Under the pieces are notes generated by a model. That model did not search any database. It had not been told where the DNA came from and saw only the letters and a list, made by a program, of their open reading frames with translations. DNA of 64,000 bases from Streptomyces sp. NBC_00572 (GTDB lineage: Bacteria > Actinomycetota > Actinomycetes > Streptomycetales > Streptomycetaceae), in assembly GCF_026341815.1 (NCBI RefSeq), contig NZ_JAPENX010000001.1, positions 682,001 to 746,000 of the forward strand, in the 5' to 3' direction. Below are positions 9,403 to 10,687 of the stretch, piece by piece (position 1 is the stretch's first letter; each line of letters opens with the position of its first letter). A program made the position numbers and the translations under genes.

Positions 9403-10446
9403 TCAGGCGCCGATGCTGTCCTTCTTGGCGTCGTCGACGTCGGTCACGCCCTCGGCGTCGGTCGCACTCTCGGCCTCGGTCACGCCGGCGGCCGCGTCCC
9501 GCGCCGCCTGCCTCTTGGAGGCGATCAGGCTGGTGATCGTGGTGACGACCAGGACGCCGCCGATGACGGCGAGCGAGAACGGGATGGAGATCTCCGGGAC
9601 GTGCACCCCGGACTCGTGCAGGGCGTGCAGCACGAGCTTGACGCCGATGAAGCCGAGGATCACCGACAGGCCGTAGCTGAGGTGGACCAGCTTCTTGAGC
9701 AGGCCGCCGATCAGGAAGTACAGCTGTCGCAGACCCATGAGGGCGAAGGCGTTGGCGGTGAAGACGATGTACGGGTCCTGGGTGAGGCCGAAGATCGCCG
9801 GGATGGAGTCGAGGGCGAAGAGGATGTCGGTGGTGCCGATGGCGAGCATGACGACCATCAGCGGGGTCATGATCCGCTTGCCGTTGCTCCGGATGAACAG
9901 CTTGGTGCCGTGGTACCGGTCGGCGACGCCGAACTTCTTCTCGACGCTCTTGAGGAGACGGTTCTCCTCCCAGTCGTCCTCGTCCTCGTCGGTGCGCGCC
10001 TCCTGGATGAGCTTCCAGGCGGTGTAGATCAGGAACGCGCCGAAGATGTAGAAGACCCAGGAGAAGTTCGCGATGACCGCGGCGCCCGCGGCGATGAAGA
10101 TCGTGCGGAGCACCAGGGCGATCACCACACCCACGAGCAGCACGCGCTGCTGGAGGTGGGAGGGGACCGCGAACTTCGCCATGATCAGGACGAAGACGAA
10201 GAGATTGTCGACGCTGAGCGATTTCTCGGTGATGTAGCCGGCGAAGAACTCGCCGGACGCCTGGCCGCTGCCGAAGAACATCAGGCCGAGACCGAAGAGT
10301 CCGGCCAGCACGATCCAGACGATCGTCCAGATTCCGGCTTCCTTGACCGACACGTCATGGGGCTTGCGCCCGATGAAGAAGTCGGCACCGATCAGGGCAC
10401 CCAGACCAAGAATGGTCAGTACCCACAGGGTCATTGAAACGTCCAC
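9403..10446 (-). CDS. terC: TerC family integral membrane protein
   Basis: A 347-residue membrane protein starting at GTG 10446, with GGAGG ending 4 nt upstream. It has about eight or nine hydrophobic helices. Conserved TerC motifs include the LSVDNLFVFVLIM segment (about residues 77-89) and FALDSIPAIFGLTQDPYIVFTAN (in two parts, about 212-235), whose Asp and Asn residues line the likely metal path. The family (TerC, Alx, MeeF/MeeY) exports or handles manganese and supports metallation of exported proteins. The original link is to tellurite resistance. A probable manganese riboswitch in its leader supports a manganese role here. The C-terminal 35 residues are acidic and not conserved. Confidence 0.92.
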   Translation of the reverse strand: MDVSMTLWVLTILGLGALIGADFFIGRKPHDVSVKEAGIWTIVWIVLAGLFGLGLMFFGSGQASGEFFAGYITEKSLSVDNLFVFVLIMAKFAVPSHLQQRVLLVGVVIALVLRTIFIAAGAAVIANFSWVFYIFGAFLIYTAWKLIQEARTDEDEDDWEENRLLKSVEKKFGVADRYHGTKLFIRSNGKRIMTPLMVVMLAIGTTDILFALDSIPAIFGLTQDPYIVFTANAFALMGLRQLYFLIGGLLKKLVHLSYGLSVILGFIGVKLVLHALHESGVHVPEISIPFSLAVIGGVLVVTTITSLIASKRQAARDAAAGVTEAESATDAEGVTDVDDAKKDSIGA

Positions 10447-10612
10447 TGCGCCTCCGGCGTCGTACGGCTACTGATCAGCGTCGTCGCTGCCGGAGGTCTC
10501 TTCCACCCGGGCGACGGACGATCGCCGCCGGGCCGACGCCCCGGGATCGGATCACTGGGGATCCGTCCGTATTGACGGGTACGCCGCGCATGGGGAGTAC
10601 TCCCCTCCGCAC
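10447..10612 (-). promoter_or_regulatory. Probable yybP-ykoY manganese riboswitch with RBS-sequestering platform
   Basis: On the minus strand the terC leader shows the yybP-ykoY elements in order: GGAGG (10608-10604) running into GGGGAGTA (10605-10598), CCGTCAATACGG around GTCAATA (10576-10570), a GC-rich helix, then AAGAGACC (10502-10495) continuing into CCTCCGGC (10496-10489). GGAGG and CCTCC can close the P1 helix. The same CCTCCGGC is perfectly complementary to GCCGGAGG (10458-10451), which contains the terC ribosome-binding site. P1 formation and site sequestration are therefore mutually exclusive, the layout of a translational ON switch. This class binds Mn2+ and often precedes TerC/Alx and exporter genes. 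I recognised it by eye, without a covariance model. Confidence 0.72.
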
Positions 10613-10613
10613 C

Positions 10614-10645
10614 GGAAAGACTACCCGAAAGACCAAGAGAAGGTA
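10614..10645 (-). promoter_or_regulatory. Candidate promoter of terC
   Basis: On the minus strand TTTACC, an 18-bp spacer and TAGTCT lie just upstream of the riboswitch-like leader, which would place the transcript start at or just before its first helix. The match to the vegetative consensus is moderate. Confidence 0.4.
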
Positions 10646-10687
10646 AAGGGGAGGGTAAAGGGCTCCCAAGAGTGCAGGTCAGGGGTG

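Follow-up and report, generated by a model that had tools for sequence, protein, structure and literature searches.

The terC gene of Streptomyces sp. NBC_00572 lies in a 64,000-nucleotide stretch of DNA (the window), and the sequence before it raised the question of whether its leader is a manganese riboswitch and how such an RNA would control the gene. All features described here are on the minus strand and are numbered as in the window. The element is the 5' leader of terC (10447-10612) and sits within a 241-base intergenic region extending from terC to the end of the upstream gene (10688). The terC coding sequence (9403-10446) has a probable GTG start at 10446 (M-D-V-S-M-T-L-W), located 4 nt past the Shine-Dalgarno (SD) sequence and in agreement with the M-D-V start of homologues, and an alternative ATG at 10434. 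The protein encoded by 9403-10434 matched PF03741 (TerC; E=3.5e-54), and the downstream protein corresponded to NCBIfam TIGR03718 'R_switched_Alx' (376.7 bits vs a cut-off of 246.4), the subfamily of E. coli Alx. A -35-like element, TTTACC (10642-10647), and a -10-like element, TAGTCT (10618-10623), were found upstream of the leader: TANNNT was kept in 92 of 93 leaders, with TTTACC or TTTACT 17-19 nt upstream of it in the same proportion. This promoter-like pair (TTTACC-N17/19-TANNNT; shuffled rate 0.002) was located 9-10 nt upstream of helix P1.1 (see below) in 92/93 leaders, and the transcript should therefore start at about 10612, i.e., at P1.1.

Read from its 5' end, the leader opens with the 5' strand of P1.1, CGGAGG (10604-10609), which forms 6 bp with 10491-10496 and covaries with its partner across the class. 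The 5' side of loop L1, GGAGUA (10598-10603), follows; it was invariant in A1, an alignment of 25 diverse Streptomycetaceae leaders that was not fitted to the structure. The P1 5' strand CUCC (10594-10597) was recognized in A1 and in the covariation analysis. Next comes a short unpaired linker (10587-10593) at the position of an mntP-type P2; P2 itself is absent, alignments A1 and A3 being without a hairpin there, and alx shows the same gap. The P3 arm (10534-10586) pairs CGGCGU..CCC (10586-10577) with GGGG..CGUCG (10542-10534), with 94.5% of cells paired and 8 of 9 pairs double-changed. It encloses the 5' side of L3, GUCAAUAC (10569-10576; GUCA..AC invariant in A1), the terminal hairpin P3.1 (10544-10568; 94.5% of cells paired, 4 of 5 pairs double-changed) and the 3' side of L3, a single C (10543) in A1 and A3 that is identical in alx. 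By analogy, the A at 10573 would correspond to the Mn2+-contacting A41 of the L. lactis RNA 4Y1I (site residues: PMC9190785). In the P4 hairpin (10505-10533), GCCC (10533-10530) pairs with GGGU (10508-10505) around a variable arm, and in A3 100% of cells were paired and all four pairs double-changed.

The P1 3' strand, GGAA (10501-10504), partners CUCC at 10594-10597. Its outermost C-A is a mismatch here, and U-A and C-G exchange at this place across the class; the C-A apposition, which closes L1 (10501 with 10597), was seen in 18 of 25 Streptomycetaceae, other actinomycetes having U-A or C-G, and is possibly a pH-sensitive pair. The 3' side of L1, GAGA (10497-10500; A1 and A3), is identical in E. 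coli alx and mntP. The switching strand CCUCCGGC (10489-10496) serves both as the 3' strand of P1.1 and as the anti-SD strand, and both of these helices covary across the class. A linker with a small hairpin, CAGCGACGACGCUG (10459-10488), kept in many Streptomyces leaders and variable elsewhere, separates it from the SD strand GCCGGAGG (10451-10458). The latter pairs with the anti-SD strand in a helix that RNAalifold found unprompted, and covaries with 10489-10496 across families. All the blocks named for this leader in the earlier note were located: GGGGAGTA at 10605-10598, GTCAATA at 10576-10570, AAGAGACC at 10502-10495, CCTCCGGC at 10496-10489, the 5' GGAGG at 10608-10604 and GCCGGAGG at 10458-10451. 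What that note called 'P1' is the switch helix named P1.1 in the literature.

Among 109 terC homologues of Streptomycetaceae with full upstream sequence, 92 kept the leader (87 fit a strict pattern and 5 were slightly different); those without it were mostly second terC copies. The blocks were invariant in the 92 leaders, and the intervening stems varied in length and sequence. Insertions and deletions between blocks were not multiples of three, so the element is non-coding. In A1, GGAGGGGAGUA, UCC, GUCA..ACGG, the 3'-side GAG and CCUCCGG, and the SD were constant with variable arms between them, and the structure made of P1.1, P1, P3, P3.1 and P4 was kept in 95.3% of cells. Folded without constraints, the alignment gave in RNAalifold the off state: the 5' GGAG on CUCC, P3, P3.1, P4 and the ribosome-site helix. 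Five leaders (S. noursei L088, S. varsoviensis L102, S. eurocidicus L111, L199 and L200) had lost the aptamer core and kept the platform strands GGAGG...CCGGCAGCG, and L104 lacked both. Folding gave no support to the idea that a short P1.1 hairpin keeps these aptamer-less leaders permanently on; the SD came out largely paired in L088, L102 and L111.

The CCUCCGGC strand was constant in Streptomycetaceae except for its last base and P1.1 was invariant there; therefore, the covariation evidence for P1.1 comes from other families. From Streptomyces terC leaders we built R1, a covariance model restricted to the aptamer. In 51 sequences aligned to R1, 24 of 28 pairs had changes on both sides and 96.3% of cells were paired; the covariation score was 0.638 vs 0.229 for shuffled alignments and at most 0.101 with partners slid, and 0 of 500 shuffles reached it. 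This alignment was fitted to the structure, a bias in its favour, and both the sliding control and the unfitted A1 agreed with it. For the switch itself, we asked how well the P1.1 3' strand of each locus matches the 5' strand and downstream sequence of that locus and of other loci. Own partners gave a mean of 5.9 bp for P1.1 (permuted, 4.7) and 6.9 bp for the SD helix (permuted, 5.6), values found in none of 5000 permutations for either helix; the permutation ignores shared ancestry within families. With partners exchanged across families, the means stayed at these permuted levels (4.7 and 5.5 bp).

Changes in the 5' strand of P1.1 were matched in its 3' (anti-SD) strand and in the SD strand: GGAGG/CCUCC/GGAGG, CAAGG/CCUUG/CAAGG, GAAGG/CCUUC/GAAGG (L153, L159, L160 and L182), CGAGG/CCUCG/CGAGG (L164, L173 and L187) and ACAAGG/CCUUGU/ACAAGG (L181). 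As a comparative case, this joint change of three strands neatly illustrates a switch strand that an aptamer helix and a ribosome site have in common. It also bears out the earlier proposal that one strand pairs alternatively with the 5' GGAGG or with the ribosome-site strand, since both helices covary across actinomycete families; when terC leaders were compared for compensatory changes, both were conserved and co-changing, and the contrary outcome, an alternative pairing not conserved in relatives, did not occur. At the level of sequence comparison, the architecture, the conserved metal-site bases, and the two alternative helices with their exclusivity and covariation are thus established. 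A simple SD helix was not found in one lineage (L183-L185, L192 and L142), in which the partner gene may be different.

We consider it very probable, from sequence and its comparison, that the terC leader is an alx-type yybP-ykoY riboswitch in which Mn2+ stabilises P1.1, frees the SD and turns terC translation on. At low Mn2+, CCUCCGGC would lie on GCCGGAGG over the ribosome site, with the 5' GGAG paired locally to CUCC and terC off. At high Mn2+, L1 and L3 would dock around the metal, and P1.1 (CGGAGG/CCUCCG) and P1 would form. CCUCC is common to P1.1 and the SD helix, and stabilisation of P1.1 would therefore remove CCUCCGGC from the ribosome site and allow terC to be translated. Its product would be a metal exporter or a metal-delivery membrane protein of the TerC/Alx family. 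We infer Mn2+ as the ligand, ON as the direction and translation as the step, the ligand and direction from homology to alx and mntP plus the anatomy of the leader. In L. lactis, metal binding at L1/L3 stabilises P1.1 (PMC11087558, PMC9190785), and both mntP and alx are Mn-activated, mntP through a freed ribosome site (PMC9603457, PMC11647493). The minimum-energy fold of the window leader lacked P1.1 and contained the SD helix with a probability of about 0.9 or more, a ground state that fits an RNA needing its ligand to switch. The calculated on state lay ~12 kcal/mol above the off state, a value that leaves out loop-loop docking and the order of synthesis. By this calculation, ligand docking and co-transcriptional order would have a large gap to bridge.

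The same aptamer could act mainly on transcription, the uncoupled off-state leader being terminated by Rho and Mn2+ relieving this termination, a reading that we regard as unlikely yet as the most serious of the alternatives. Rho terminates the E. coli mntP leader at its riboswitch (PMC11647493), and Rho termination is compatible with the present data as a second layer. However, the alternative helix includes the SD, stops 4 nt short of the start codon and has no U-run after it, which fits primarily translational control. A transcription terminator in the platform was rejected, as no U-run was seen.

C-A pairs are pH-sensitive, and most Streptomyces leaders have a C-A apposition beside L1, at a place occupied by U-A or C-G in other actinomycetes. 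The RNA might sense alkaline pH together with Mn2+ or instead of it, as does the leader of alx, the closest characterised relative, which is activated by alkaline pH and Mn2+ (PMC9603457). Nevertheless, alx has A-U at the pair in question, so its pH response has another source, and we think pH sensing slightly less likely still than transcriptional output.

The assignment of the leader to the yybP-ykoY family, made in the earlier note, was supported by L1, L3, the P1.1 switch, the gene context and homology to alx. L1 presented GGAGUA opposite (G/A)AGA, closed by the GG/CC of P1.1, with its 5' side invariant in A1; L3 carried the invariant A (equivalent to A41, whose role is described in PMC9190785) in GUCA; P1.1 competes with the expression platform; and the RNA lies before a gene of the Mn-homeostasis group (TerC/Alx, MntP and GDT1). 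In the window's own genome, R1 recovered the terC leader with 93 bits and reached the E. coli alx leader with 37.9 bits (E=7e-7); its match to E. coli mntP was weak (14.9 bits, E=0.079).

RF00080 was the covariance check proposed beforehand, and no match to it was found in the window at the Rfam 15 gathering score, nor in a permissive scan of 371 bases that allowed E values up to 10. By the rule set in the earlier note, this outcome amounts to half a refutation. This negative is uninformative for an alx-type RNA because the Rfam 15 model also fails to detect the leader of E. coli alx (L193:3374-3501), a riboswitch known from experiment, even when it is searched alone; E. coli mntP, with 41.6 bits, likewise falls under the cut-off of 45, so that the gathering score does not discriminate for the subtype. 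RF00080 calls for a P2 hairpin and an L3 reading GUCAACAUACU, whereas alx and the window lack P2 and have an L3 of the form GUCANUAC. The four-way P1-P2-P3-P4 junction was not found either, P2 being absent in the window and in the actinomycete relatives inspected. Neither lack excludes membership, since alx, an accepted member, fails on both counts. We therefore filed the terC leader as a putative alx-type (P2-less) yybP-ykoY riboswitch.

Within the class, R1 matched in at least 172 of 296 genomes and at least 66 of 114 genera, counts that are lower bounds because the first-look filter drops real matches such as the GDT1 leader L001 (see below). None of 60 genomes of the order and none of 118 of the class gave an RF00080 score above the cut-off; alx-type riboswitches are thus overlooked by this standard model throughout the actinomycetes. 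Among 70 R1 loci, made up of 40 fetched distant loci and those returned directly, 65 adjoined terC.

Only the missing RF00080 match speaks positively for a conserved leader that binds a protein or another ligand and merely resembles manganese riboswitches. Its conserved loops, on the contrary, are those known to hold the metal, R1 reaches both E. coli alx and the GDT1 gene of the same genome, and the genomic partners are TerC genes; we regard this reading as improbable. The view that a GC-rich intergenic sequence resembles the riboswitch by chance, to which the lack of an Rfam match and a single-sequence folding z-score of only -1.4 (uninformative about chance) might point, is refuted by the comparative data, with blocks invariant in 92 leaders, covariation reached in 0 of 500 shuffles and a spread over 66 genera, and has a negligible probability.

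A second Mn-riboswitch-like leader was found in the window's own genome (L001:1485-1586, minus strand; G000:C2 at about 6.896 Mb), before a GDT1/UPF0016 gene (PF01169). Scored directly, it gave 56.8 bits with R1 and 27.2 bits with RF00080, and its L3 has GUCGACAUAC in place of GUCAA. At L142, L183 and L184 the aptamer precedes a family of ~290 aa proteins with the core ADRAAIARYDYLLQTAD..., a candidate manganese-related gene family; there was no Pfam match for the proteins of L183 and L184 and no NCBIfam match for that of L183. At L181 the aptamer (R1 match 301-400) directly precedes a gene for a PGPGW transmembrane protein (PF09656), and at L160 a PGPGW-like gene follows terC. L164 carries divergent R1 matches (1701-1801, minus, and 1905-2052, plus) ~100 bp apart, which are back-to-back candidate Mn riboswitches.

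Under the proposed mechanism, terC of Streptomyces, and by extrapolation that of much of the class, would be subject to a testable manganese control. The frequency of the alx type in actinomycetes (at least 172/296 genomes sampled) is likely underestimated by routine annotation because RF00080 of Rfam 15 misses these RNAs. More broadly, the actinomycetes may hold a very widespread class of P2-less, alx-type Mn riboswitches with a three-way junction, in which the P1.1 strand is the anti-SD strand and to which the C-A apposition of Streptomyces could add pH sensing, a composite picture that we put forward only as a long shot.

In the open literature searched, we found no published Streptomyces terC or manganese riboswitches. 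That the family occurs in actinomycetes was already known: the terC (cg2157) leader of C. glutamicum, an actinomycete terC leader like the one studied here, was listed under RF00080 with 49.13 bits in 2013 and its start site was mapped (PMC3890552), whereas the current Rfam 15 model stays below its cut-off in all of the 118 class genomes sampled. The breadth of the distribution and the gap in Rfam 15 are useful additions. The L. lactis yybP-ykoY RNA (PDB 4Y1I) has counterparts in the window for its metal-site residues G9, U39, C40, A41 and C45 and also uses P1.1 as its switch helix, but it forms a four-way junction with P2, acts by transcription antitermination and has U44 where the window and alx have A. 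E. coli mntP and the RF00080 consensus share the blocks GGGGAGUA, GUCAA and GAGACC and the P1.1 switch, with translational ON reported for mntP; they differ in their P2 hairpin and their GUCAACAUACU-type L3. The nearest likeness is to E. coli alx, a yybP-ykoY riboswitch with a TerC/Alx gene downstream, the same order of P1, P3 and P4, no P2, and L1 GGAGUA//GAGA and L3 GUCANUAC//C against GGAGUA//GAGA and GUCAAUAC//C in the window. In alx, which has more leader parts, the partner of the P1.1 3' strand is GGCGAGGUC, a long way before the start codon, whereas in the window this strand pairs directly with the Shine-Dalgarno sequence.
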